A program made the translations under genes and the position numbers. Of a stretch of 64,000 bases of DNA, positions 24,660 through 37,271 are shown piece after piece. Origin of the DNA: Xenophilus aerolatus (GTDB taxonomy: Bacteria; Pseudomonadota; Gammaproteobacteria; Burkholderiales; Burkholderiaceae_C). The stretch spans positions 1-64,000 of the forward strand of contig JASCNX010000001.1 of assembly GCA_029968055.1 (NCBI GenBank), written 5' to 3'. Below the pieces are notes generated by a model that ran no database searches, was not told the DNA's origin, and saw only the letters and a program-made list of their open reading frames with translations. How positions within the stretch are numbered: the first letter of the stretch is position 1; each line of letters opens with the position of its first letter.

Positions 24660-25691
24660 CTATGGATTCTGCGGTGAGGGGGGCTGCGTCTGCGTCTGGA
24701 ACTGCGACTGGGACTGCGACTGCGATCCGCCCGGCGTCGCCGGCGCCGGGTCCTGCCCGGCGATCTCCTCGTACGGGCGGACCGTGACGCCCACGTCCAG
24801 CACGTGGCGCGCCCCGCCGTGCAGCACGCCGCGCATGGGCGAGACGTCGGCGTAGTCGCGGCCGATGGCCAGCACGACGTAGTCCTCGCCGGGCTGGCGG
24901 CCGTTGGTCGGATCGAAGCCGGCCCAGTCGCCCACGGCGATGGCGGTGGTGTCGCCCTCGTCGTCGTCCTCGGCGGCGCGGCCGGGCAGGTAGACCTCGA
25001 CCCAGGCGTGCGAGGCATCGGCGCCGACCAGGCGCGGCTGGCCCGGCGGCGGCTGCGTGAGCAGGTAGCCGCTGACGTAGCGCGCGGGCAGGCCCAGGCC
25101 GCGGCAGCAGGCGATCATGATGTGGGCGAAGTCCTGGCACACGCCGCGCCGCTGGGCCAGGGCCTCGACCGCCGGCGTGTTGATCTCGGTGCTGTCGCTG
25201 TCGTAGTCGAAGTCGCGGTAGATGCGCAGCGTGAGGTCCATCGCCGCCTCGAAGATCGGCCGGCCTGCCGTGAAGCTCTGGCGCGCATAGGCGAGGAAGT
25301 CGTCGTGCAGCGGTGCATAGCGCGACGGGAAGACGAACTCCGAGGCCGGGTCGTCGTGCACGCCCTTGCGATAGCGGAAGCGCTCGCGCACGGCTTCCCA
25401 GGGCAGTTCGGGCGCGGCCTCGGGCGCCAGCCGCGGCGCGCTGGTCTCGACCAGGCTCTCGGCCGTGACGACGAGCTGGTCGTGCGTCGACTCCAGGGCG
25501 AAGAAGGCACGCGTGTTGCCGTACACGTCGATCGATTCGCTGCGCTGCGTCGGTTGCGGGCTGACCGACAGGCGGTGGTTCACCAGGCGCTGGCACGCCC
25601 GCGTGAGCGGCTTGAGGTGCGCCATGTGCTGGGCCGTCTCGACGGCCGGTGCATAGTCGTAGCGCGTTTCGTGGGTGACGTGGAGCAGCAT
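24660..25691 (-). CDS. Transglutaminase-like protein with Ser/Gln tail
   Basis: This 343-residue cytoplasmic protein has no signal peptide. It has the bacterial transglutaminase N-terminal region (LLHVTHETRYDYAPAVETAQ) and a transglutaminase-like core with Cys185 in RRGVCQDFAH, His228 in DASHAWVEVY and Asp260 in AGFDPTNG. The fold can act as a protease, amidase or cross-linker. The last 23 residues form a low-complexity tail, GGSQSQSQSQFQTQTQ then Pro/Ser/Gln, absent from the core family. It starts 2 bases after the ATP-grasp/alpha-E gene ends and is surely coupled to it. Such genes are recurrent partners of ATP-grasp and alpha-E genes. Confidence 0.88.
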   Translation of the reverse strand: MLLHVTHETRYDYAPAVETAQHMAHLKPLTRACQRLVNHRLSVSPQPTQRSESIDVYGNTRAFFALESTHDQLVVTAESLVETSAPRLAPEAAPELPWEAVRERFRYRKGVHDDPASEFVFPSRYAPLHDDFLAYARQSFTAGRPIFEAAMDLTLRIYRDFDYDSDSTEINTPAVEALAQRRGVCQDFAHIMIACCRGLGLPARYVSGYLLTQPPPGQPRLVGADASHAWVEVYLPGRAAEDDDEGDTTAIAVGDWAGFDPTNGRQPGEDYVVLAIGRDYADVSPMRGVLHGGARHVLDVGVTVRPYEEIAGQDPAPATPGGSQSQSQSQFQTQTQPPSPQNP

Positions 25692-25693
25692 GG

Positions 25694-28426
25694 TCACGCG
25701 CCGACGGAGCGAACGGTGTCGGAAGTCAGGGTGAAGTAGCGCACGCCGATGGCGTCGGACACGTGGTAGGCCGCGTTCTCGCAGTCCTCCAGCACGTCCA
25801 GCAGCGCGCCGTAGCGCGCGTCGGGGCCGGCATGGCACAGCCGCTCCAGCGTCCAGGCGGCCGGGTCGGGCAGTTCGTGCGACAGCGCGGTGAGCTTGCC
25901 CGGCGCGCTGCCGGCCAGGCGCGCGATGCGCCCCCGCAGCGTCTGCGCCACCCACGCCAGCGAGCGCGGGTTGTCGCCGTCGAGCACCAGCAGGTCGACC
26001 AGCGTCGCGACGTCGCGGCGCTGCTGGTAGCGTGCATGGAAGGTGATGGTGCTGTCGAAGAGCGCGACCATGGCCTCGAAGCCGGCAACGTCGTGCACGG
26101 TGCCCTGCTCGAAACCGGCCGTGAGCGCGCTGGACAGGAAGCCCAGGCGCTCGATGTGCCGGCCGATGGACAGCAGCCGCCAGGCGTCGTCGCGCGTCAT
26201 GCGGTCGGTCTGCGCGCCGGTGATGGCCGACAGCATCGCGCTGGCCGCCTCGAGCGAGCGCTGGGTGGCGCCGATCGCGTAGCGGCCTTCGCCCGGCTCG
26301 CCGGCCTGGTCGGCCATGCGGCGCAGGAACTCCGTCTCGGCGCGCACGATGTGGTTCCAGTGCTCCTGCGACAGGCGTTCGCGCACGGCGGCCGCCGCAT
26401 CGCGCAGGCAGCGCAGGTTGAAGCCCAGGCTGCGGCCGCGCTGCGCGTCGCCCAGCTCGGCGATCAGCGCGCGCTCGAACACGCGGCGCGATTGCGCGGC
26501 GCGCGGTCCGTCGGGCAGGTGCTGCACGGTGGGCAGCTCGCGCGGCACCAGGGCGTTGCGCTGGCAGAGTTCGCGCAGCCAGCCGACCAGCGGGCGCGAG
26601 GACTGGTCCTCGCCGCTGAGCAGGTCCAGGCCCAGGCGGGCCAGGCGCAGCGTGTTCTCGGCCCGCTCGGTATAGCGGCCGAGCCAGAACATGTTCTCGG
26701 CCGCGCGGCTGGTGACCGGGGCGCGGTGGCGTGCGAGCGATGCCGGCGTGGCATGCGGCGTCAGCAGGGTGGTGCGGTCGACCTCGCCGTCGGTCTGCAC
26801 CCACACGTCGGCGCTGCTGCCGCCGCGCTGCATCGAGGCGATCTGCGCATCCGGCCCCGCCAGCCGTGCCAGCCCGCCGGGCAGCACGCGCCAGGACTGC
26901 GGGCCGTCGTTGACCGCGAACACGCGCAGCAGCACCGCCTTGGGCGCGATGTGGCCGGGGCCGAGGTCCTGCGCCCAGGTCGGCATCTGCGACAGGGGCA
27001 TGTAGCGCTGCACGGTGTGGGCGTCGCCTTCGCGGATGATGCGGCCGGCCCATTCGTCGAGTTCGCGCCGGCCGAGCTGCGTGCCCAGCACGGCGTCGAA
27101 GGCCGGGTGCGCATCGGAGCCGGGGAAGGTCGGCTTGATGGCGCAGTCGGCCAGCTGCGGCAGCACCGACTCCATGGCCGCGCGCTCGCCGCACCACCAC
27201 GTGGGCAGGGCCGGCAGGCTGAGCTTCTCGCCGATCAGGTGCTGCGCCAGCGCGGGCAGGAAGCCCAGCATGGCCGGCGATTCGAGGAAGGCCGAGCCCG
27301 GCGTGTTGGCCACCAGCACGTTGCCGGCGCGGATGGCCTGCAGCAGGCCGGGCACGCCCAGGGTGGAGTCGGGCCGCAGCTCCAGCGGGTCGAGGTACTG
27401 GTCATCGAGCCGCTTGATCAGGCCGTGCACCGGCCGCAGGCCCTGCAGCGTCTTGAGGTAGAGGCGCTCGTCGCGCACGGTGAGGTCGCTGCCCTCGACC
27501 AGCGTCACGCCCAGGTAGCGGGCCAGGTACGCATGCTCGAAGTAGGTCTCGTTGTAGGGGCCGGGCGTGAGCAGGGCGATGTGCGGCGGCGCGCCGGCCG
27601 GACACATGGTCTGCAGGCCTTCCATCATCGCGCTGTAGGTCGCGGCCAGGCGCTGCACCTGCAGCGACTCGAAGGCCTGCGGGAACTGCCGCGAGATGGC
27701 CAGCCGGTTTTCCAGCAGGTAGCCCAGGCCGGAGGGGGCCTGGGTGCGCTGCGACACGACCCACCAGTTGCCGTCGGGGCCGCGCGCGAGGTCGAAGGCG
27801 GCGATGCGCAGCCAGGTGTCGCCCGGCGGCCGCACGCCGTGCATGGCGCGCAGGTAGCCCGGGTGGCCGCGCACCAGGGCGGCGGGCAGCAGGCCTTCGG
27901 ACAGCAGCTTCTGCGGGCCGTACACATCGGCCAGCACGCGGTCGAGCACGCGCGTGCGCTGCAGCACGCCGGCCTCGATCTGGGCCCAGCTCTGCGGCGG
28001 CACGATGAGCGGGAAGAGGTCGAGCGACCAGGGGCGCTGGGGGCCGTCGCTGTCGGCGTAGACGTTGTAGGTCACGCCGTTGTCGCGGATCTGGCGTTCC
28101 AGGCTCACCGCGCGGCGGGGCAGGTCGGCGAAGCCGGCGGGGCCGAGCGCCTCGAAGAACTGGCTCCAGGCGGGCGTGAGCGGGGTCTTGGGGGCGGCGG
28201 CTTCGGCGCGTTCCTCGGCCGCCTCCGGCGGCGGAGGCTCCAGGGCATCGTGCAGCGGGGGCACGGCCGGCGCCGGCCGCGCGGCCGGTGCCTCGGCCAC
28301 CGGCGTGACGGCGCCGCGCAGTTCGTCGAAATGGCCGGGCTGTGCCGGCGGGGCGAGCGCGGACGCGAAGGCGGCCGGAGATTCCAGCGCCTGCGCGTCG
28401 AAGAGAGAGTCGTTCAGCGAATCCAC
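25694..28426 (-). CDS. Circularly permuted ATP-grasp / alpha-E fusion protein
   Basis: This 910-residue fusion starts with an Ala/Pro-rich leader of about 75 residues. A circularly permuted ATP-grasp domain follows (GVTYNVYADSDGPQRPWSLD through the SSADVWVQTDGE region). An alpha-E domain begins near residue 575 with ENMFWLGRYTERAENTLRLA. ATP-grasp enzymes join a carboxylate to an amine; alpha-E is a helical domain of unknown role that accompanies them. The same two domains occur as separate genes at 34.8-37.3 kb. It is followed after 2 bases by the small transglutaminase gene. Substrate and product are unknown. Confidence 0.9.
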   Translation of the reverse strand: MDSLNDSLFDAQALESPAAFASALAPPAQPGHFDELRGAVTPVAEAPAARPAPAVPPLHDALEPPPPEAAEERAEAAAPKTPLTPAWSQFFEALGPAGFADLPRRAVSLERQIRDNGVTYNVYADSDGPQRPWSLDLFPLIVPPQSWAQIEAGVLQRTRVLDRVLADVYGPQKLLSEGLLPAALVRGHPGYLRAMHGVRPPGDTWLRIAAFDLARGPDGNWWVVSQRTQAPSGLGYLLENRLAISRQFPQAFESLQVQRLAATYSAMMEGLQTMCPAGAPPHIALLTPGPYNETYFEHAYLARYLGVTLVEGSDLTVRDERLYLKTLQGLRPVHGLIKRLDDQYLDPLELRPDSTLGVPGLLQAIRAGNVLVANTPGSAFLESPAMLGFLPALAQHLIGEKLSLPALPTWWCGERAAMESVLPQLADCAIKPTFPGSDAHPAFDAVLGTQLGRRELDEWAGRIIREGDAHTVQRYMPLSQMPTWAQDLGPGHIAPKAVLLRVFAVNDGPQSWRVLPGGLARLAGPDAQIASMQRGGSSADVWVQTDGEVDRTTLLTPHATPASLARHRAPVTSRAAENMFWLGRYTERAENTLRLARLGLDLLSGEDQSSRPLVGWLRELCQRNALVPRELPTVQHLPDGPRAAQSRRVFERALIAELGDAQRGRSLGFNLRCLRDAAAAVRERLSQEHWNHIVRAETEFLRRMADQAGEPGEGRYAIGATQRSLEAASAMLSAITGAQTDRMTRDDAWRLLSIGRHIERLGFLSSALTAGFEQGTVHDVAGFEAMVALFDSTITFHARYQQRRDVATLVDLLVLDGDNPRSLAWVAQTLRGRIARLAGSAPGKLTALSHELPDPAAWTLERLCHAGPDARYGALLDVLEDCENAAYHVSDAIGVRYFTLTSDTVRSVGA

Positions 28427-28507
28427 AGCCGGACCATTGTCACACCCCTGTCACGGCGAATGACGACGTGCGGCCCATCGTGGAGCAGGCACGCGAGGGC
28501 TGCGTGA

Positions 28508-28533
28508 CAAAAGCACGCGGCCGTCGCGTGCTT
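28508..28533 (-). terminator. Intrinsic terminator after DUF2126 gene
   Basis: On the minus strand AAGCACGCG (28533-28525) and CGCGTGCTT (28519-28511) form a 9-bp stem with a 5-base loop, running into a short T tract at 28511-28508. It begins directly after the stop codon at 28535. It implies that the next gene downstream (28426) has its own promoter or relies on read-through. Confidence 0.65.
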
Positions 28534-28534
28534 C

Positions 28535-31500
28535 TCATCGCCGCAGGTCGAGGGTGAACGGGAATTCGCGGCTGCCCGTGACCTCGATGTTGGCCGGCGG
28601 CGTGCGCAGCACGCCCGGCGTGTGGCCCATGCGCGAGAAGCGCGCCATGCGCCGGCTCTCGGCCTCGTAGGCGTTGACCGGGAAGGTCGTGTAGTTGCGC
28701 CCGCCCGGGTGGGCGACGTGGTACTGGCAGCCGCCGATCGAGCGCTTCATCCAGGTGTCGACCAGATCGACGGTCAGCGGCGCATGCGGCTGGATCGTCG
28801 GGTGCAGCGACGAGGGCGGGTTCCATGCCTTGTAGCGCACGCCGGCCACGTACTCGCCCGCGACGCCGGTGGGCTGCAGCGGCAGCACCTGGCCGTTGAC
28901 AGTGACGACGTAGCGGCTCTGGTTCAGGCCCGTGACCCGCACCTCGATGCGTTCGAGCGAGGAGTCGACGTAGCGCACGGTGCCGCCGGGCGCGCCTTCC
29001 TCGCCCATCACGTGCCACGGCTCCAGCGCGTTGCGCAGCGACAGCTGCATGCCCATGGCCTGCACCTCGCCCACCAGCGGGAAGCGGAACTCGAAGTGCG
29101 GCGCGAACCATTCGGCCTCGAAGGCGAAGCCGGCCTGGCGCATCTCGCTGATGACGTCGTCGAAGTCCATCTTGACGAAGGTCGGCAGCAGGAAGCGGTC
29201 GTGCAACTCGGTGCCCCAGCGCGTGGCGGGCGCCGCGTAGGGCGTGTCCCAGAAGCGGGCCACCAGCGCGCGCAGCAGCAGCTGCTGCACGATGCTCATG
29301 CGCGCATGCGGCGGCATTTCGAAGGCGCGCAGTTCCAGCAGGCCCAGGCGGCCGGTGGGACCGTCGGGCGAGTAGAGCTTGTCGATGCAGAACTCGCTGC
29401 GGTGCGTGTTGCCGGTGACGTCGATGAGGATGTTGCGCAGCGTGCGGTCGACCAGCCAGGGCGGCATGCCCTGGCCGTAGATCTCGCGGTTCTTCGCGAT
29501 CTCCTTGATGGCGATCTCCAGCTCATAGACCTGGTCGTTGCGCGCTTCGTCCACCCGCGGCGCCTGGCTGGTCGGGCCGATGAACATGCCCGAGAACAGG
29601 TACGACAGCGAGGGGTGGTTGTGCCAGTACAGCAGCAGGCTGGCCAGCAGCTCGGGCTTGCGCAGGAAGGGGCTGTCGGACGGCGTGGCGCCGCCGAGCA
29701 CGAAGTGGTTGCCGCCGCCGGTGCCGGTGTGGCGGCCGTCGGTCATGAACTTCTCGGCCGACAGGCGCGTCTGGAAGGCCGCGTCGTAGAGGAACTCGGT
29801 GTGCTGCACCAGTTCGCCCCAACTGTGGGCCGGGTGGATGTTGACCTCGATCACGCCCGGGTCGGGCGTGACCTGCAGCAGCTTCAGGCGCGGATCGCGG
29901 GGGGGCGGGTAGCCTTCGAGCACGATCTTCACGCCCAGCTCCTCGGCCGTGGCCTCGACGGCGGCGAGCAGGTCGAGGTAGTCCTCCAGCCAGGCCAGCG
30001 GCGGCATGAACACGTACAGGATGCCCGAGGCCTTGCCCACCTTCTCGGCAGCGGGGCCGTTGGCGCGGCGCGGGTCGCGTGCCTCGATGCACAGCGCCGT
30101 GCGGGTGATCCAGTGCGCCGACTCGTTGCGCAGCGGAAAGCGCACGTTCGCGCCCTCGGCCGTGTGCGTGCGGTCCGATGCCGGGCCCGCGTCGCCCGGG
30201 CCCGTGCTCTGGCCGTGCGGGCCGGTGCCGAACTGCATGCGGTAGGTGCTCGGCGCCTGCTGCGGCGTGCCGTGGGCGTAGGGCACGGTGCCGCGGTCGC
30301 CGGCGGCCAGGCCAGCCATGCCGGTGTAGCGGCTGCGGAAGTCGCCGGGCGAGGGCAGGGGCACGCTCGGCGCGTTCGGGTCGCGGTCGACCAGGTAGGG
30401 GTAGTCGCCCTTGCTGGCCCAGGGCTGCGAATCGAGCGGCAGCCGATAGCCCATCGGCGAATCGCCGGGGATGAGGTACATGCGGTCGTCGCGCAGGAAC
30501 CAGGGGCCGGTCTTCCAGCCGCCGCCGGCCAGTGCCGGATTGCCGCCGGCCGAGGCCGGCTCCAGCGGCAGCACGTAGCCGATCACCGCATCGAGCTTCT
30601 GCGTGAAGACGCGGCGCAGGCGCGCGCGCTCGAGTTCGTCGTCGAGCTTGGATTCGAAGGGGTCGACGTTGACCGGCAGGCGACGTTCGCGCCAGAGGTA
30701 GTAGTAGACGTCCTCGTAGCCGGGCTGGATGAAGCGTTCGGCCAGGCCGAGCTTCTCGGCCAGCTTGTAGGTGAAGCGTCGCGCGTCCTCGCTGGTGTAG
30801 TGCGAGGGCTGGCGCTCGTCGGCGAAGAGCGCCGGGTTGTGCCAGATCGGCTGGCCGTCGGCGCGCCAGAAGATCGACAGCGCCCAGCGCGGCAGCTGTT
30901 CGCCGGGGTACCACTTGCCCTGGCCGAAGTGCAGGAAGCCGCCGTGGCCGTATTCGCTGCGCAGGCGGTCGACCAGCTCGGTGGCGTAGCCGCGCTTGGT
31001 GGGGCCGAGCGCGTCGGTGTTCCATTCGGCCGCGTCGCGGTCGGAGGTGGCGACGTAGGTCGGCTCGCCGCCCATGGTCAGGCGCACGTCGCCGGCGGCC
31101 AGGCGCGCGTCGACCGCGTCGCCCAGCGCCAGCACGTCGGCCCACTGGTCCTCGGTGTAGGGCTTGGTCACGCGCGGCGACTCGTACACGCGCGAGACGC
31201 TCATCTCGTGGTTGAAGTCGACCTCGGCCTCGTCCATCAGTCCTTCGATGGGCGCGGCGCTCGACGGCGTGGGCGTGCAGGCCAGCGGGATGTGGCCCTC
31301 GCCGGCCAGCAGGCCCGAGGTGGCGTCCAGCCCGATCCAGCCGGCGCCGGGCAGGTACACCTCGCACCAGGCGTGCAGGTCGGTGAAGTCGACCGTGGTG
31401 CCGCTCGGGCCGTCCAGCGCCTTCACGTCGGGCGTGAGCTGGATCAGGTAGCCCGAGACGAAACGCGCCGCCAGGCCCATGTGGCGCAGCAGCTGCACCA

Positions 31501-32059
31501 GCAGCCAGCCCGAGTCGCGGCAGGAGCCGGATGCGTTCTGCAGCGTCTGCTCGGGCGTCTGCACGCCGGGCTCCATGCGGATGAGGTACTTGACGTCGCT
31601 CTGCACCTGCTGGTTGATCTGCACGAGGAAGTCGATGGTGCGCTTCTCGGTGCGGTCGATCTTGTCGAGGTAGGCCTGCACCAGCGGCGTCGCGGGGTCG
31701 GCCACCAGGTAGGGCGCGAGTTCCTCGGCCTGTTCCTTCGAGTACTTGAAGGGGAAGTTCTCCGCGTGCGGCTCGAGGAAGAAGTCGAAGGGGTTGTAGA
31801 CCGCCATCTCGACCACGAGGTCGACGGTCACCTTGAACTCGGTCGTCTTCTTCGGGAAGACCAGTCGCGCCAGGTAGTTGGAGAACGGGTCCTGCTGCCA
31901 GTTGACGAAGTGCTCGGCCGGCTCGACCCGCAGCGAGTACGAGACCACGTTGCTGCGGCAGTGGGGCGCAGGACGCAGGCGGACCACCTGCGGGCCGAGC
32001 TGCACCGGCCGGTCGTACTTGTAGTGAGTGACGTGATGAAGGGCGGCGTGGATCGACAT
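28535..32059 (-). CDS. Transglutaminase / DUF2126 putative amidoligase fusion
   Basis: This 1174-residue protein begins with a transglutaminase N-terminal region (AALHHVTHYKYDRPVQLGP). A core follows with Cys180 in ASGSCRDSGW, His229 in TDLHAWCEVY and Asp245 in WIGLDATSG. From about residue 325 (VRLTMGGEPTYVAT) to the end it matches DUF2126, which Pfam labels a putative amidoligase related to glutamine synthetase-like ligases. One chain thus pairs a thiol peptidase-type fold with an amide-forming domain. It is divergent from comEC, and the minus-strand transglutaminase operon lies downstream. No signal peptide is seen, so it is probably cytoplasmic. Confidence 0.9.
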   Translation of the reverse strand: MSIHAALHHVTHYKYDRPVQLGPQVVRLRPAPHCRSNVVSYSLRVEPAEHFVNWQQDPFSNYLARLVFPKKTTEFKVTVDLVVEMAVYNPFDFFLEPHAENFPFKYSKEQAEELAPYLVADPATPLVQAYLDKIDRTEKRTIDFLVQINQQVQSDVKYLIRMEPGVQTPEQTLQNASGSCRDSGWLLVQLLRHMGLAARFVSGYLIQLTPDVKALDGPSGTTVDFTDLHAWCEVYLPGAGWIGLDATSGLLAGEGHIPLACTPTPSSAAPIEGLMDEAEVDFNHEMSVSRVYESPRVTKPYTEDQWADVLALGDAVDARLAAGDVRLTMGGEPTYVATSDRDAAEWNTDALGPTKRGYATELVDRLRSEYGHGGFLHFGQGKWYPGEQLPRWALSIFWRADGQPIWHNPALFADERQPSHYTSEDARRFTYKLAEKLGLAERFIQPGYEDVYYYLWRERRLPVNVDPFESKLDDELERARLRRVFTQKLDAVIGYVLPLEPASAGGNPALAGGGWKTGPWFLRDDRMYLIPGDSPMGYRLPLDSQPWASKGDYPYLVDRDPNAPSVPLPSPGDFRSRYTGMAGLAAGDRGTVPYAHGTPQQAPSTYRMQFGTGPHGQSTGPGDAGPASDRTHTAEGANVRFPLRNESAHWITRTALCIEARDPRRANGPAAEKVGKASGILYVFMPPLAWLEDYLDLLAAVEATAEELGVKIVLEGYPPPRDPRLKLLQVTPDPGVIEVNIHPAHSWGELVQHTEFLYDAAFQTRLSAEKFMTDGRHTGTGGGNHFVLGGATPSDSPFLRKPELLASLLLYWHNHPSLSYLFSGMFIGPTSQAPRVDEARNDQVYELEIAIKEIAKNREIYGQGMPPWLVDRTLRNILIDVTGNTHRSEFCIDKLYSPDGPTGRLGLLELRAFEMPPHARMSIVQQLLLRALVARFWDTPYAAPATRWGTELHDRFLLPTFVKMDFDDVISEMRQAGFAFEAEWFAPHFEFRFPLVGEVQAMGMQLSLRNALEPWHVMGEEGAPGGTVRYVDSSLERIEVRVTGLNQSRYVVTVNGQVLPLQPTGVAGEYVAGVRYKAWNPPSSLHPTIQPHAPLTVDLVDTWMKRSIGGCQYHVAHPGGRNYTTFPVNAYEAESRRMARFSRMGHTPGVLRTPPANIEVTGSREFPFTLDLRR

Positions 32060-32196
32060 GGGTTGGGCTGGGTGCTTGTTATGGGTACGGTCCGCGCGAT
32101 GGCACGACCGACCGGCGCCATACTAGCCGACAAGCCAAGCAAGGAATGCGCCACGACAGCGTCATGGTGCCGTGCCTGGCGCGGAAGGTTCAAGGG

Positions 32197-34713
32197 ATGG
32201 ATCGAGAGCAATGGGAGGGGGCGCCGACGGCGCCGCAGGTCGACGTGGCCGAGGGGCTGCCCATGGAAGGCCGGAGGGCGGCCTGGCGCGGGTTTGCCTT
32301 GCTGGCCGGCAGCGTGGCGGGGGCTGCGCTGCAGCTTCGGCAGCCGGCGTTGTGGGGCTGGCCGGTCTATGCCGCGGCCGTGCTGGCAGGCGTGCTGGCG
32401 GCGACGGTGCCCGTGCGGCGGCGCGGCCGCATCGGCCTGGCGGCGATGGGGCTGGTGGCCGGGCTGGCGCTGGGCGTTGGCGCCACCGGCGGCCGGGCCC
32501 TCGCCTACCTCGCCGATGCGCTCGACCCGGCCCTCGAGGGCGAGGACGTGCGCGTGGTCGGTGTCGTGGCCCAGATGCCCCAGCGCAACGAGACCGGCGT
32601 GCGCTTCCGCTTCGATGTCGAGGCGGTGCGGCGCGCCGCCGGCGCGTCGGGTCCGCCGCCGCAGGTGCCGCCCCGGCTCGCACTGGGCTGGTATGCCGCG
32701 GACACCGGGGCCTGGTCGCGGGGTGCCGTCGAAGGCGGCGCGGCGCGCGCGGTGGAGCTGCCGCAGGTCCGCGCGGGCCAGCGCTGGGTGTTCACCGTGC
32801 GGCTGAAGGCGCCGCATGGCAACCGCAACCCGCACGGCTTCGACTACGAACTGTGGCTGTGGGAGCAGGGCCTGCAGGCCACGGGCTACGTGCGCACCGG
32901 CGCTCGAGACGCGGCGCCCGAGCTGCTGGGCCGCGACTGGGCCCATCCGGTGGAGCGGGCACGCGAGGCGGTGCGCGACGGCATCGACGCGCAGGTGGCC
33001 GACCGGCGGCTGGCCGGCGTGATCGCGGCGCTGGTCACCGGCGACCAGGCCGCGATCGAACGGGCCGACTGGGACGTCTTCCGCGCCACCGGCGTGGCGC
33101 ACCTGATGAGCATCTCGGGCCTGCACGTGACGATGTTCGCCTGGCTCGCGGCGGCGGTCGTCGGCTGGCTCTGGCGGCGCAGTCCGCGCCTGCTGCTGCG
33201 CTGGCCGGCACCCCATGCCGCGCTCGTGGGCGGCGTGGGCCTGGCGGCGCTCTACGCGCTCTTCAGCGGCTGGGGCGTTCCCTCGCAGCGCACGGTGTGG
33301 ATGCTGGCGCTGGGCGGGCTGCTGCGCCTGTCGGCCCGGCGCTGGCCCTGGCCCTTCGCCTGGCTGGCCGTTTGCGCGGGCGTGGTGGCGGTCGACCCCT
33401 GGGCGCTCATGCAGGCCGGCTTCTGGCTCAGCTTCGTGGCCGTCGGCGTGCTGTTCGCCACGGATCCGGGAGCGCCGCGCGCAGGCGGGTCAGGCGCCGC
33501 AGCCCGGCTCGGCTCGAGGCTGTGGCACCTGATGCGCGAGCAGCTGATCGTCACGCTGGCCCTCGCGCCCCTGTCGCTGCTGCTCTTCCAGCAGCTGTCG
33601 CTGGTCGGACTGCTGGCCAACGCGGTCGCCATCCCGTGGGTGACGCTGGTGGTCACGCCGCTGGCCATGCTGGGCATCCTCTGCCCGCCGCTGTGGCAGG
33701 CGGCCGCCTGGGCGGTGCAGGGGCTGGGCTGGATGCTGCAGGCGCTGGCGGCGCTGCCTGGCGCCACGGTGTCGACGCCCGCGCCGGCCCTGTGGGCCGC
33801 GGTCGCCGGCGTCGTCGGCGGCCTGCTGATCGCGATGCGCCTGCCACTGCCCATGCGGCTGCTCGGGCTGCCGCTCATCGCGCCGGTCCTGCTGTGGCCG
33901 CCCGCGCGGCCGCCGGTGGGTGAGTTCGAGTTGCTGGCCGCCGACGTGGGGCAGGGCAACGCCGTCATCGTGCGCACCGCGACGCACGGCCTGCTGTACG
34001 ACGCCGGGCCGCGCTACAGCCTCGAAAGCGATGCCGGGCACCGCGTGCTGGTGCCGCTGCTGAGGGCCGAGGGCGTGGCGCTCGACACCGTGGTGCTGAG
34101 CCACCGCGACATCGACCACACGGGCGGCGCGGCCGCCGTCCTGGCCATGCAGCCGCAGGCGGCGCTGCTGAGCTCGATCGAGGCCGGCCACCCGCTGCAG
34201 GCGCTGCGGCCCGCGGTGCGCTGCGAGGCGGGCCAGCACTGGGAATGGGACGGCGTGCGCTTCGAGGTCCTGCACCCGCTGCCGGGCGACTACGCCACCG
34301 TCACCCGGCCCAACGCCCTGTCCTGCGTGCTGCGCATCGGCCACGCCGGGGCATGGGCGCTGCTCGGCGGCGACGTCGAGAGGCCGCAGGAGGCCGCCCT
34401 GGTCGCACGGGCGAGCGACACCCTGCACGCCGACCTGCTGCTGGCGCCGCACCACGGGAGCAAGACCTCGTCCAGCCCGGGCTTCCTCGACACGGTCATG
34501 CCGCGCCTGGTGGTCGTGCAGAGCGGCTGGCGCAACCGCTTCGGCCACCCGGCCGCGGAGGTGGTCGACCGCTACCGCGAGCGCGGCGTCCAGGTGGTGG
34601 ATTCGCCCCACTGCGGCGCCCTGCGCTGGCGCAGCCAGGCGCCCTCGGCCGTCGATTGCGAGCGCGAGATGGCCGAGCGCTACTGGCAGCACCGGCCGGC
34701 GCCATTGCCGTGA
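32197..34713 (+). CDS. comEC: DNA internalization competence protein ComEC/Rec2
   Basis: This roughly 838-residue polytopic membrane protein would form the inner-membrane channel for single-stranded DNA uptake. It has N-terminal hydrophobic segments with a soluble DUF4131-type region, a competence domain starting near GVAHLMSISGLHVTMFAW with many membrane helices, and a C-terminal metallo-beta-lactamase-like domain with VGQGNAVIV and LSHRDIDHTGG. ATG 32197 is chosen for GGAAGG 8 bases upstream; in-frame ATGs at 32146 and 32164 are possible. It sits alone between two ATP-grasp/alpha-E loci and shares no obvious function with them. Other competence genes are not in the window. Confidence 0.92.
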   Translation: MDREQWEGAPTAPQVDVAEGLPMEGRRAAWRGFALLAGSVAGAALQLRQPALWGWPVYAAAVLAGVLAATVPVRRRGRIGLAAMGLVAGLALGVGATGGRALAYLADALDPALEGEDVRVVGVVAQMPQRNETGVRFRFDVEAVRRAAGASGPPPQVPPRLALGWYAADTGAWSRGAVEGGAARAVELPQVRAGQRWVFTVRLKAPHGNRNPHGFDYELWLWEQGLQATGYVRTGARDAAPELLGRDWAHPVERAREAVRDGIDAQVADRRLAGVIAALVTGDQAAIERADWDVFRATGVAHLMSISGLHVTMFAWLAAAVVGWLWRRSPRLLLRWPAPHAALVGGVGLAALYALFSGWGVPSQRTVWMLALGGLLRLSARRWPWPFAWLAVCAGVVAVDPWALMQAGFWLSFVAVGVLFATDPGAPRAGGSGAAARLGSRLWHLMREQLIVTLALAPLSLLLFQQLSLVGLLANAVAIPWVTLVVTPLAMLGILCPPLWQAAAWAVQGLGWMLQALAALPGATVSTPAPALWAAVAGVVGGLLIAMRLPLPMRLLGLPLIAPVLLWPPARPPVGEFELLAADVGQGNAVIVRTATHGLLYDAGPRYSLESDAGHRVLVPLLRAEGVALDTVVLSHRDIDHTGGAAAVLAMQPQAALLSSIEAGHPLQALRPAVRCEAGQHWEWDGVRFEVLHPLPGDYATVTRPNALSCVLRIGHAGAWALLGGDVERPQEAALVARASDTLHADLLLAPHHGSKTSSSPGFLDTVMPRLVVVQSGWRNRFGHPAAEVVDRYRERGVQVVDSPHCGALRWRSQAPSAVDCEREMAERYWQHRPAPLP

Positions 34714-34785
34714 CCAAAGTCAGCTTCCGCTCAAGGGAGGTGGTCCTGAACTTGCTAAGCTATGGCCGAAGGAGATTGGTCGTCC

Positions 34786-36297
34786 ATGCACAAATTCGAC
34801 GAAATGTATGAGCGGCTGCCCTATGCAGGGGCCGCGATCCGTCAGCACTACCAACGTTACGACCAGTGGCTCGCGAAGCAACCTCAAGAGGTGATGAATT
34901 CGCGGCGCGAGGAGGCGGAAATGATCTTCCGCCGCGTCGGCATCACCTTCGCGGTGTACGGCGCCAAGGACGAGGACGGCTCGGGCACCGAGCGGCTCAT
35001 CCCCTTCGACCTGCTGCCGCGCATCATCCCGGCCCACGAGTGGGAAAGCATGCAGAAGGGGCTGGCGCAGCGCGTCAATGCCCTCAACCGCTTCATCCAT
35101 GACGTCTACCACGACCAGGAGATCGTCAAGGCGGGGATCATCCCCTCGGAGCAGATCAACAACAACGCGCAGTTCCGGCCCGAGATGATCGGCGTCAACG
35201 TGCCGAACGACGTGTACTCCAACATCTCGGGCATCGACATCGTCCGCGCGCCCGACGCCGAGGGCAAGGGCGAGTACTACGTGCTGGAAGACAACCTGCG
35301 CGTGCCCAGCGGCGTGAGCTACATGCTCGAGAACCGCAAGATGATGATGCGGCTCTTCCCCGAGCTTTTCGCGCAGAACCGCGTCGCGCCGGTGGCCCAC
35401 TACCCCGACCTGCTGCTCGAGACGCTGCGCGCCAGCGCACCGCCGGCCACGGCCGAGCCCACGGTGGTGGTGCTCACGCCCGGCATGTACAACAGCGCCT
35501 ACTTCGAGCATGCCTTCCTGGCCCAGCAGATGGGCGTCGAGCTGGTCGAGGGCCAGGACCTGTTCGTCAAGGACGACTTCGTCTACATGCGCACCACCCG
35601 CGGCCCGAAGCGGGTCGACGTGATCTACCGCCGGGTGGACGACGACTTCCTCGACCCCGAGGTGTTCCGCCCCAACTCCACGCTGGGCTGCGCCGGCCTG
35701 ATGCGCGCCTACAAGGCGGGCAACGTGGTGATCTGCAACGGCGTGGGCACCGGCGTGGCCGACGACAAGTCGATCTACCCCTACGTGCCCAAGATGATCG
35801 AGTTCTACCTCGGCGAGAAGCCGATCCTCAAGAACGTGCCGACCTGGATGTGCCGCAACAAGGACGACCTGGGCTACGTGCTGGCCAACCTCAAGGACCT
35901 GGTCGTCAAGGAAGTGCACGGCGCCGGCGGCTACGGCATGCTGATCGGCCCGGCCGCGACGCAGGCCGAGATCGAGGAATTCCGCCAGGCCGTGATCGCC
36001 AAGCCCGACGGCTACATCGCCCAGCCCACGCTGAGTCTGTCGACCTCGCCGACCTTCGTCGAATCCGGCATCGCTCCGCGCCACATCGACCTGCGGCCCT
36101 TCGTGCTGTCGGCCAAGGAGGTGCAGATGGTGCCCGGCGGCCTCACGCGGGTGGCGCTCAAGGAGGGATCGCTGGTGGTCAACTCCTCGCAGGGCGGCGG
36201 CACCAAGGACACCTGGATCATGGAGTCCGACAAGCGCTTCGGCACGCAGTCGCAGAGCCAGGGCGGGCAGTCCCAGACGCAGACGCAGGCATCCTGA
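34786..36297 (+). CDS. Circularly permuted ATP-grasp protein with Gln-rich tail
   Basis: This 503-residue cytoplasmic ATP-grasp-fold ligase starts MHKFDEMYERLPYAGAAIRQ. Core segments include ITFAVYGAKDEDGSGTERLI, YVLEDNLRVPSGVSYMLENR and VLTPGMYNSAYFEHAFLAQQ. ATG 34786 is preferred because GAAGGAG lies upstream (34768-34774) and the family begins near it; ATG 34762 would add 8 residues without a ribosome site. The last 18 residues (TQSQSQGGQSQTQTQAS) form a Ser/Thr-Gln tail very like that of the transglutaminase at 24.7 kb. The alpha-E gene follows after 17 bases. It probably forms an amide bond on an unknown substrate. Confidence 0.88.
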   Translation: MHKFDEMYERLPYAGAAIRQHYQRYDQWLAKQPQEVMNSRREEAEMIFRRVGITFAVYGAKDEDGSGTERLIPFDLLPRIIPAHEWESMQKGLAQRVNALNRFIHDVYHDQEIVKAGIIPSEQINNNAQFRPEMIGVNVPNDVYSNISGIDIVRAPDAEGKGEYYVLEDNLRVPSGVSYMLENRKMMMRLFPELFAQNRVAPVAHYPDLLLETLRASAPPATAEPTVVVLTPGMYNSAYFEHAFLAQQMGVELVEGQDLFVKDDFVYMRTTRGPKRVDVIYRRVDDDFLDPEVFRPNSTLGCAGLMRAYKAGNVVICNGVGTGVADDKSIYPYVPKMIEFYLGEKPILKNVPTWMCRNKDDLGYVLANLKDLVVKEVHGAGGYGMLIGPAATQAEIEEFRQAVIAKPDGYIAQPTLSLSTSPTFVESGIAPRHIDLRPFVLSAKEVQMVPGGLTRVALKEGSLVVNSSQGGGTKDTWIMESDKRFGTQSQSQGGQSQTQTQAS

Positions 36298-36314
36298 AGA
36301 CGAGGAGGACACAC

Positions 36315-37271
36315 ATGCTTTCACGCACCGCCGACCACCTCTACTGGATGTCCCGCTATACCGAGCGCGCGGAGAACACCGCCCGCATGCTGGACATCAA
36401 CTACCAGACCTCCCTGCTGCCGCAGTCGGCCGAGATGGCGCAGTCGGGCTGGCAGGGCATCCTGTCGATCAGCGAACTGCGCCCCGCCTACTTCGCCAAG
36501 CACGACACCGTGACCCCCGAAGGCGTCATGGAGTTCATGGTCAAGGACGAGAGCAACCCCTCGTCGATCATCTCCTGCCTGCGCGCAGCGCGCGAGAACG
36601 CGCGTGCCGTGCGCGGTGCGCTGACCACCGAATCGTGGGAGACGCAGAACAGCACGTGGCTCGACGTCAACCGCATGCTGCGCTCGGGCGGCTTCGAGCG
36701 CGATCCGGGGGCTTTCTTCGAATGGGTCAAGTTCCGCTCGCACCTCTCGCGCGGCGTCACGCTGGGCACCATGCTGCAGGACGAGTCGCTGTATTTCTCG
36801 CGCCTGGGCACCTTCCTCGAGCGGGCCGACAACACGGCGCGCCTGGTCGACGTGAAGTTCCACGCCATGGGCAGCGAATTCTTCGGCGCCGCGACCGAAG
36901 GCGACCAGGAGTACGACTTCTACCACTGGAGCGCGATCCTGCGCAGCGTCTCGGCCTTCGAGGTCTACCGCAAGGTGTATCGCGACGTGATCAAGCCCGA
37001 GCGCGTGGCCGAACTGCTGGTGCTGCGTGCCGACATGCCGCGCTCGCTGCACCACAGCCTCCACGAGGTCGTCGCCAACCTGGCCAAGGTCGCCAACGAC
37101 CAGAGCGCCGAGACGCAGCGCCGCGCCGGCAAGCTGCTGGCCGAGCTGCAGTACGGCCGCGTCGACGAGATCCTCGCCACCGGGCTGCATGCCTACCTCA
37201 CGCAGTTCCTCGACCGCGTGAACGAACTGGGCGGGCGCATCAGCCAGGACTTCCTGGTGCCTGCGCACTGA
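36315..37271 (+). CDS. Alpha-E domain-containing protein
   Basis: This 318-residue all-helical protein of the alpha-E (formerly DUF403) family starts MLSRTADHLYWMSRYTERAE, with internal motifs LRAARENARAVRGAL and GTFLERADNTARLVDVKFH. CGAGGAGGAC precedes ATG 36315. It is the stand-alone version of the domain fused to ATP-grasp at 25.7-28.4 kb. In other genomes a transglutaminase and a proteasome-like protease often follow. Here the operon ends at a terminator instead. Molecular role unknown; the charged RYTERAENT-type motif has been suggested as functionally important in this family. Confidence 0.9.
   Translation: MLSRTADHLYWMSRYTERAENTARMLDINYQTSLLPQSAEMAQSGWQGILSISELRPAYFAKHDTVTPEGVMEFMVKDESNPSSIISCLRAARENARAVRGALTTESWETQNSTWLDVNRMLRSGGFERDPGAFFEWVKFRSHLSRGVTLGTMLQDESLYFSRLGTFLERADNTARLVDVKFHAMGSEFFGAATEGDQEYDFYHWSAILRSVSAFEVYRKVYRDVIKPERVAELLVLRADMPRSLHHSLHEVVANLAKVANDQSAETQRRAGKLLAELQYGRVDEILATGLHAYLTQFLDRVNELGGRISQDFLVPAH

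Follow-up and report, generated by a model that had tools for sequence, protein, structure and literature searches.

The first 64 kb of contig C1 (JASCNX010000001.1) of the 5.12-Mb Xenophilus aerolatus genome, hereafter the window, carries at 24660-37271 five genes that together encode two transglutaminase-fold domains, one DUF2126 domain, two circularly permuted (CP) ATP-grasp domains and two alpha-E domains, all scoring far above the Pfam cut-offs. They form two arms around comEC: a minus-strand arm consisting, in gene order, of a transglutaminase-DUF2126 gene (Tgase-DUF2126), a CP-ATP-grasp-alpha-E fusion and a second transglutaminase gene (Tgase), and a plus-strand arm, behind comEC, consisting of an unfused CP-ATP-grasp gene and an adjoining alpha-E gene. 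We find that this set is an instance of a known, predicted type of system; that its proteasome-like partner Anbu is encoded elsewhere in the genome and co-occurs with the ligase even when unlinked to it; that the fused ATP-grasp looks like a catalytically dead but conserved copy tied to DUF2126; and that candidate sigma-54-like sites precede each arm within the bacterial family. Tentatively, we read the set as an amide ligase/hydrolase system of nitrogen starvation, probably switched on via NtrC and RpoN.

The initial annotation of this locus had described the five genes, their seven domains and the two arms around comEC, all of which Pfam and TIGR00361 matches confirm, and had likened them to a gene set that gene-neighbourhood work linked to peptide or amide modification; it is the same set. 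Other of its claims, concerning Anbu, catalytic residues and the split arrangement, fared differently and are taken up below. Published papers are cited by their PubMed Central numbers, from excerpts of their text.

An unlinked Anbu co-occurs with the ligase

A proteasome-family search of the genome gave two matches, both away from the arms, so that neither arm has a proteasome-like neighbour, as originally stated; a proteasome-like partner is nevertheless present in the genome. Anbu lies 1.8 Mb off, directly behind mutS, at G000:C1:1840652-1841479 (L003:1216-2043), and the other match is HslV beside an HslU-like gene (names assigned by reading). This Anbu is related to solved Anbu structures (best match 2.2e-94) and carries, counted by eye, Thr1, Asp17 and Lys32, which PMC6376114 names as candidates for catalysis. 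Of five S1-pocket residues reported for Pa-Anbu (PMC5666114) it keeps four (T20, F30, L52 and S55), position 48 being S, not T. The position beside mutS is a common one: mutS lies within 1.6 kb of Anbu in 15 of 20 fetched loci whose Anbu is unlinked to the ligase.

Co-occurrence was counted in two samples. The family sample is the family f1 grouping (90 genomes, 89 genera), in which CP-ATP-grasp matches above 530 bits were sorted as unfused and those below as fused, and four fragments were marked by hand as partial (two in G048, one each in G050 and G019). The phylum sample comprises 120 Pseudomonadota genomes at least 90% complete (78 genera, this genome included), with the sub-cut-off matches of G110 and G091 dropped. 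Within the family, CP-ATP-grasp is found in 80/90 genomes, and Anbu in 73/80 with it versus 1/10 without (Fisher p 1.5e-7, kinship ignored), yet of the 74 genomes that have Anbu, only 11 place it 2.1 kb or less from a ligase match, in one case a partial match. Anbu thus co-occurs with the ligase despite distance, and because of this co-occurrence we count the unlinked Anbu in the set. Across both samples, G183 and G016 are the sole Anbu genomes without any CP-ATP-grasp match.

The phylum sample holds unfused CP-ATP-grasp in 69/120 genomes, the fused protein in 37, Anbu in 43 and DUF2126 in 39. Genomes with the unfused ligase have Anbu in 42/69 cases, versus 1/51 without it, and DUF2126 in 39/69, versus 0/51. 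The fused protein and DUF2126 travel together (35 of 37 fused genomes, 35 of 39 DUF2126 genomes), and among ligase genomes of this sample Anbu and DUF2126 are independent of each other (p 0.81, kinship ignored). These counts suggest that the unfused ligase is the core, to which the Anbu and DUF2126 modules are options.

The Anbu operon, as in P. putida (PP_2685-2688) or Y. bercovieri, shares with the window an unfused CP-ATP-grasp and adjacent alpha-E with intact motifs, an Anbu in the same genome and, in relatives, nitrogen-linked control. It differs in that here Anbu stands apart beside mutS, with a best sigma-54-like site of 8/12, no transglutaminase follows the alpha-E gene, and comEC is the upstream neighbour. 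Because of the 1.8 Mb between Anbu and the arms, the window holds a dispersed set rather than an intact Anbu operon.

Genome-wide searches gave a single DUF2126 match and two CP-ATP-grasp matches; the third ATP-grasp set that the initial annotation proposed to look for was not found among them. Bact_transglu_N matched four times: both minus-arm genes, C1:674366 and, weakly, C2:322815. The idea that C1:674366 is a transglutaminase lost from an Anbu operon was not supported: its sole partner in the tree is the copy of locus L065, which sits upstream of comEC. This third transglutaminase (L010:7716-8615) adjoins an mnmC-like gene, assigned by reading, with no set partners beside it.

One active-looking ATP-grasp and one conserved, dead-looking copy

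In ATP-grasp enzymes the ExN motif binds metal and the glycine-rich loop binds ATP. We aligned 94 unfused (39 + 55) and 49 fused (23 + 26) CP-ATP-grasps, window copies included, leaving tblastn matches under 0.6 coverage out of the residue counts in family loci. The unfused proteins keep E176, D177, N178, K383 and G389 in 94/94 and G390 and G392 in 93/94. Each of E176 and N178 (ExN), K336 and D443 is lost in all 49 fused copies, and the loop is mostly gone (G389 kept in 4/49, G390 in 12/49, G392 in 3/49); K383 is retained in 16/49, the window copy among them. Some other residues, such as D298, N326 and R445, do not vary among the 49, and the fused proteins form a single clade (support 1.0). 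This combination of motif loss, invariance elsewhere and common descent suggests one old duplicate that lost catalysis while the gene was retained. Judged by these residues, the plus-arm protein looks to be the only active one of the two, and the fused copy looks like a conserved pseudo-ATP-grasp tied to DUF2126. Literature searches with phrases naming an inactive ATP-grasp gave no paper.

Roles for ExN and the loop are carried over from classical ATP-grasp enzymes, since a CP-ATP-grasp profile search for classical ATP-grasp structures returned only 3n6x and two chance rows. The structure 3n6x, a putative glutathionylspermidine synthase whose function is known by annotation alone, is related to the plus-arm enzyme over the full length (694 bits); its match to the fused copy, which lacks the motif, scores 261 bits.

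The transglutaminase fold relies on a Cys-His-Asp triad, and Cys, His and Asp are retained in 52/52 aligned domains. The initial annotation had named loss of catalytic residues as evidence that would tell against it: such loss is real for the fused ATP-grasp, whereas the transglutaminases and the other ATP-grasp are intact. Both alpha-E versions keep two ER motifs (39/39 unfused, 22/22 fused), and the plus-arm alpha-E is modelled confidently as all-helical, without a clear PDB match (structure alignment of 55 of 125 sequences). The predicted structure of DUF2126, a weak model from an alignment of 42 of 79 sequences plus that of the window, resembles glutamine synthetases, and the domain is a putative glutamine-synthetase-like amidoligase; a literature search by the name DUF2126 gave no paper.

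Candidate sigma-54-like sites before both arms

The 300 bases upstream of each gene were scanned for -24/-12 sites at a threshold of 10/12, after removal of matches with tblastn coverage below 0.8, loci with fewer than 300 upstream bases and duplicates. Candidate sites concentrate before CP-ATP-grasp and, in family and GTDB loci, before Tgase-DUF2126 (Table 1); an inside-gene control for CP-ATP-grasp gave a site in 3/145. Within the family, separate candidate sigma-54-like sites thus precede the two arms. The minus-arm site of the window is the sole 11/12 score on either strand.

Table 1. Loci with a sigma-54-like site upstream of each gene
Gene	Family	GTDB	Phylum
CP-ATP-grasp	34/38	50/53	24/45
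Tgase-DUF2126	15/20	58/79	2/29
Alpha-E	0/38	1/54	1/41
Fused gene	0/22	5/71	2/25
comEC	1/22	7/36	0/2
Anbu	2/30	0/2	0/14
Tgase	1/28	8/73	1/33

Dyads of NtrC type (at most two mismatches, within 350 bases) precede CP-ATP-grasp in 12/38 family and 21/53 GTDB loci, with none inside genes in either, and in 2/45 phylum loci, with 2 inside genes. Before Tgase-DUF2126 they number 4/20, 11/79 and 0/29 in the same three samples (1, 3 and 0 inside genes). RpoN and NtrC are both encoded in this genome.

Gene order and the place of comEC

Locus maps display the queried proteins only, with tblastn coverage floors of 0.55 for phylum maps and 0.85 to 0.9 for the references of named-relative maps; one 28-bit neighbour row of G045 was dropped from the family layout count. 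Both gene types occur in 57 family genomes, and in 46 of these no more than 30 kb of one contig separates the arms, which run on opposite strands in 23 genomes and on the same strand in 23. Eight family loci (L014-L020, L022) have the classical order CP-ATP-grasp, alpha-E, transglutaminase, Anbu; in distant families L229, L231, L234, L235 and L236 gather both arms and Anbu in one cluster of about 12 kb, and in several genomes, such as G124, G144 and G180, the arms form separate clusters. The DUF2126 cluster of Burkholderia operons (e.g. L107, L110, L117) has the same three genes in the same order as the minus arm; here the CP-ATP-grasp/alpha-E arm lies on the other strand, beyond comEC. The initial annotation had singled out the split of this locus. 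Relatives show same-strand, comEC-centred and single-cluster layouts, and the split is thus no peculiarity of the locus but one variant among several, in a set whose parts tend to remain neighbours.

The gene comEC stands beside the set in 16/20 two-arm family loci and in many named relatives, and in 2/40 phylum loci, both belonging to family f1. We therefore rejected it as a functional part, its adjacency being nearly confined to one family and its own sigma-54-like site mostly missing (Table 1); it is a frequent neighbour in this bacterial family and probably no working part of the set. Closest protein relatives of the window genes include Xenophilus, Xylophilus and Variovorax names among the matches listed (the best 120 of about 8000 were taken per search), a family that we take to be Comamonadaceae.

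Feature coordinates are collected in Table 2. For the plus-arm ATP-grasp the most likely start is ATG 34786 rather than 34762, because AAGGAG precedes the former and because of the promoter-like site upstream; ATG 34762, the first in the frame, falls about where transcription from that site would be expected to begin. The minus-arm site overlaps the first possible comEC start, 32146, so that a later start for comEC, or shared control, is possible.

Table 2. Features of the two arms and of comEC, by position in the window
Feature	Coordinates	Strand	Basis
Transglutaminase-fold protein (Bact_transglu_N + Transglut_core)	24660..25691	-	Pfam; Cys, His, Asp conserved; PDB relative 3isr
CP_ATPgrasp (463 bits) + Alpha-E (196 bits) fusion	25694..28426	-	Pfam
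Alpha-E part of fusion	about 25733-26713	-	Pfam
Degenerate-looking CP-ATP-grasp part of fusion	about 26858-28012	-	ExN lost
Transglutaminase domain + DUF2126 (1320 bits), putative amidoligase	28535..32059	-	Pfam; Cys, His, Asp intact
Sigma-54-like -24/-12 site TGGCGC-N5-TTGCT, upstream of minus arm	32138..32153	-	11/12
comEC, between arms	32146..34713	+	TIGR00361, 336 bits
Candidate sigma-54-like site, upstream of plus arm	34741..34756	+	9/12
Unfused CP_ATPgrasp ligase (555 bits)	34786..36297 (open frame from 34762)	+	Pfam; PDB relative 3n6x
Alpha-E protein (330 bits)	36315..37271	+	Pfam; ER motifs intact

Discussion

Domains, conservation or loss of active sites, co-occurrence, linkage in gene order and promoter-like sites were established directly, and it is on these that the nitrogen-starvation reading builds. 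For this organism we infer the substrates, the direction of reaction, the partnering and the control as follows. Nitrogen shortage would lead to transcription of both arms; the plus-arm CP-ATP-grasp, partnered by alpha-E, would use ATP to activate a carboxylate and join it to an amine, while the glutamine-synthetase-like DUF2126 domain would be the ligase of the minus arm, which the fused pseudo-ATP-grasp/alpha-E protein would serve as a scaffold or non-catalytic partner. Hydrolysing the amide or peptide again would fall to the Cys hydrolases of transglutaminase fold and to the distant Anbu. On balance, peptides, amines or proteins would be conjugated and trimmed, making their nitrogen movable.

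Anbu-operon genes and the urea transporter genes urtABCD are usually taken as NtrC/sigma-54 targets. NtrC dependence, nitrogen induction and phosphate release from ATP would carry over to this set by analogy with relatives in print. An ntrC mutant of B. cenocepacia H111 shows log2 changes of -8.2, -9.4, -9.4 and -6.0 for I35_5080-5083, which encode DUF404/407, DUF403 and two transglutaminases (PMC5491218); in loci L107, L110 and L117 of other Burkholderia species the run CP-ATP-grasp, alpha-E, transglutaminase, Tgase-DUF2126 matches that order and is followed by the fused gene and a Tgase. Under nitrogen limitation wild-type P. putida raises PP_2686 12.6-, PP_2687 11.0- and PP_2688 14.7-fold (PMC7801951), and a further study reports PP2685-2687 up 11.1-, 6.6- and 7.1-fold (PMC3325844). 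Growth on nitrate versus ammonium raises PP_2685 and PP_2688 (log2 4.4 and 4.0), and a PP_2688 promoter reporter responds to nitrogen depletion (PMC8050072). Marine metagenomes link these domains to urea metabolism (PMC3597751), and the Anbu-operon ATP-grasp of Y. bercovieri releases phosphate from ATP (PMC6376114). The main text of the Caulobacter NtrC preprint PMC10274813, in the excerpts used, does not mention the ATP-grasp or alpha-E genes, and those of PMC8407117 offered no statement that bears on the set.

Several points weigh against this reading. In the window the plus-arm site scores only 9/12, on a strand with 57 sites of at least 9, and the best NtrC dyad candidate has four mismatches. 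Anbu mostly lacks a site of its own (2/30 family loci, 10 of the 30 beside the ligase), and the minus-arm site, common in family and GTDB loci, is rare in phylum loci (2/29). Our co-occurrence P-values ignore shared ancestry, and neither Anbu nor DUF2126 was found in 11/69 ligase genomes of the phylum sample. From the published side, the main-text excerpts of PMC5491218 do not name the fused gene or the second transglutaminase that follow I35_5080-5083. For Anbu, PMC6376114 reports that no peptidase or amidase activity, no complex with operon partners and no stimulation of the ATP-grasp was detected; PMC5666114 favours protein degradation over peptide synthesis; and, in agreement with the initial annotation, which had called both unknown, the excerpts of these two papers name neither substrate nor product. 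In a P. putida rpoN mutant PP_2686-2688 are still induced 14.2-, 16.0- and 19.6-fold, and Anbu (PP_2685) barely shifts in wild type (1.12) or mutant (1.45), while urtABCD likewise stay induced (PMC7801951). Induction in that mutant counts against simple sigma-54 dependence; since the urea transporter genes behave alike in it, the conflict may be attributable to the strain.

The alternatives share much of this evidence. The ligases might attach a tag to proteins that Anbu then degrades and the transglutaminase-fold enzymes untag, as with Pup and the proteasome in actinobacteria. The Pup ligase PafA has a glutamine synthetase fold, which the predicted DUF2126 model would echo; the co-occurrence of Anbu with the ligase and the nitrogen-limitation trigger also fit, and ideas of tagging, untagging and nitrogen release are already in print for the Anbu operon (PMC6376114). 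No unfoldase is among the known parts, however, the same paper gives no measured peptidase activity for Anbu, and 27/69 ligase genomes of the phylum sample have no Anbu match; we regard tagging as rather unlikely. A bolder form would make the arms and the dispersed Anbu a separately arisen, proteobacterial analogue of the Pup-proteasome, devoted to tagging and turnover in nitrogen starvation: DUF2126, run by the pseudo-ATP-grasp/alpha-E regulator, and the active CP-ATP-grasp would conjugate a tag to proteins or amines, and Anbu with the transglutaminase-fold hydrolases would degrade the tagged products and free their nitrogen. The Pup system does share a glutamine-synthetase-like ligase and a proteasome-like hydrolase; Anbu differs in having no known unfoldase, and the window in its extra ATP-grasp and transglutaminase parts. 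We think this form decidedly improbable.

The set might instead make a small metabolite, a peptide or amide for storage, protection or export, when nitrogen is limiting, and the hydrolases would then act in its maturation; this would suit the annotation of 3n6x, the only solved relative, and the ligase genomes that have neither Anbu nor DUF2126. Production of a storage compound during nitrogen scarcity is counter-intuitive, and we consider this reading unlikely. Two neighbouring modules might also be independent, the plus arm working with Anbu and the minus arm, with DUF2126 and the pseudo-ATP-grasp, on a different task; the independence of Anbu and DUF2126 given CP-ATP-grasp, and the separate clusters of several genomes, agree with this. 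DUF2126 was nevertheless never found without the unfused ligase in the phylum sample, the arms lie near each other in most family genomes having both, distant families hold both arms and Anbu in one cluster, and sigma-54-like sites precede both arms in the family, all of which leaves independence improbable. A role with comEC in DNA uptake, or in the use of DNA as a nutrient, draws on the adjacency in most two-arm family loci, and is very improbable, given how closely that adjacency is tied to one family and how rarely comEC has a sigma-54-like site.

The nitrogen-starvation reading, though tentative, remains the one that we prefer. The Anbu/ATP-grasp system was predicted years ago; what is new here is an Anbu that is unlinked yet co-occurring, what looks like a conserved pseudo-ATP-grasp tied to DUF2126, candidate sigma-54-like sites before each arm in the family, and a split that proves to be one layout among several. 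These results narrow the search for the system's substrate. The candidate ligases are the plus-arm ATP-grasp and DUF2126, with the fused ATP-grasp to be treated as a non-catalytic partner, and nitrogen starvation, signs of which had no part in the initial annotation, is the condition under which to look for the function of the set.

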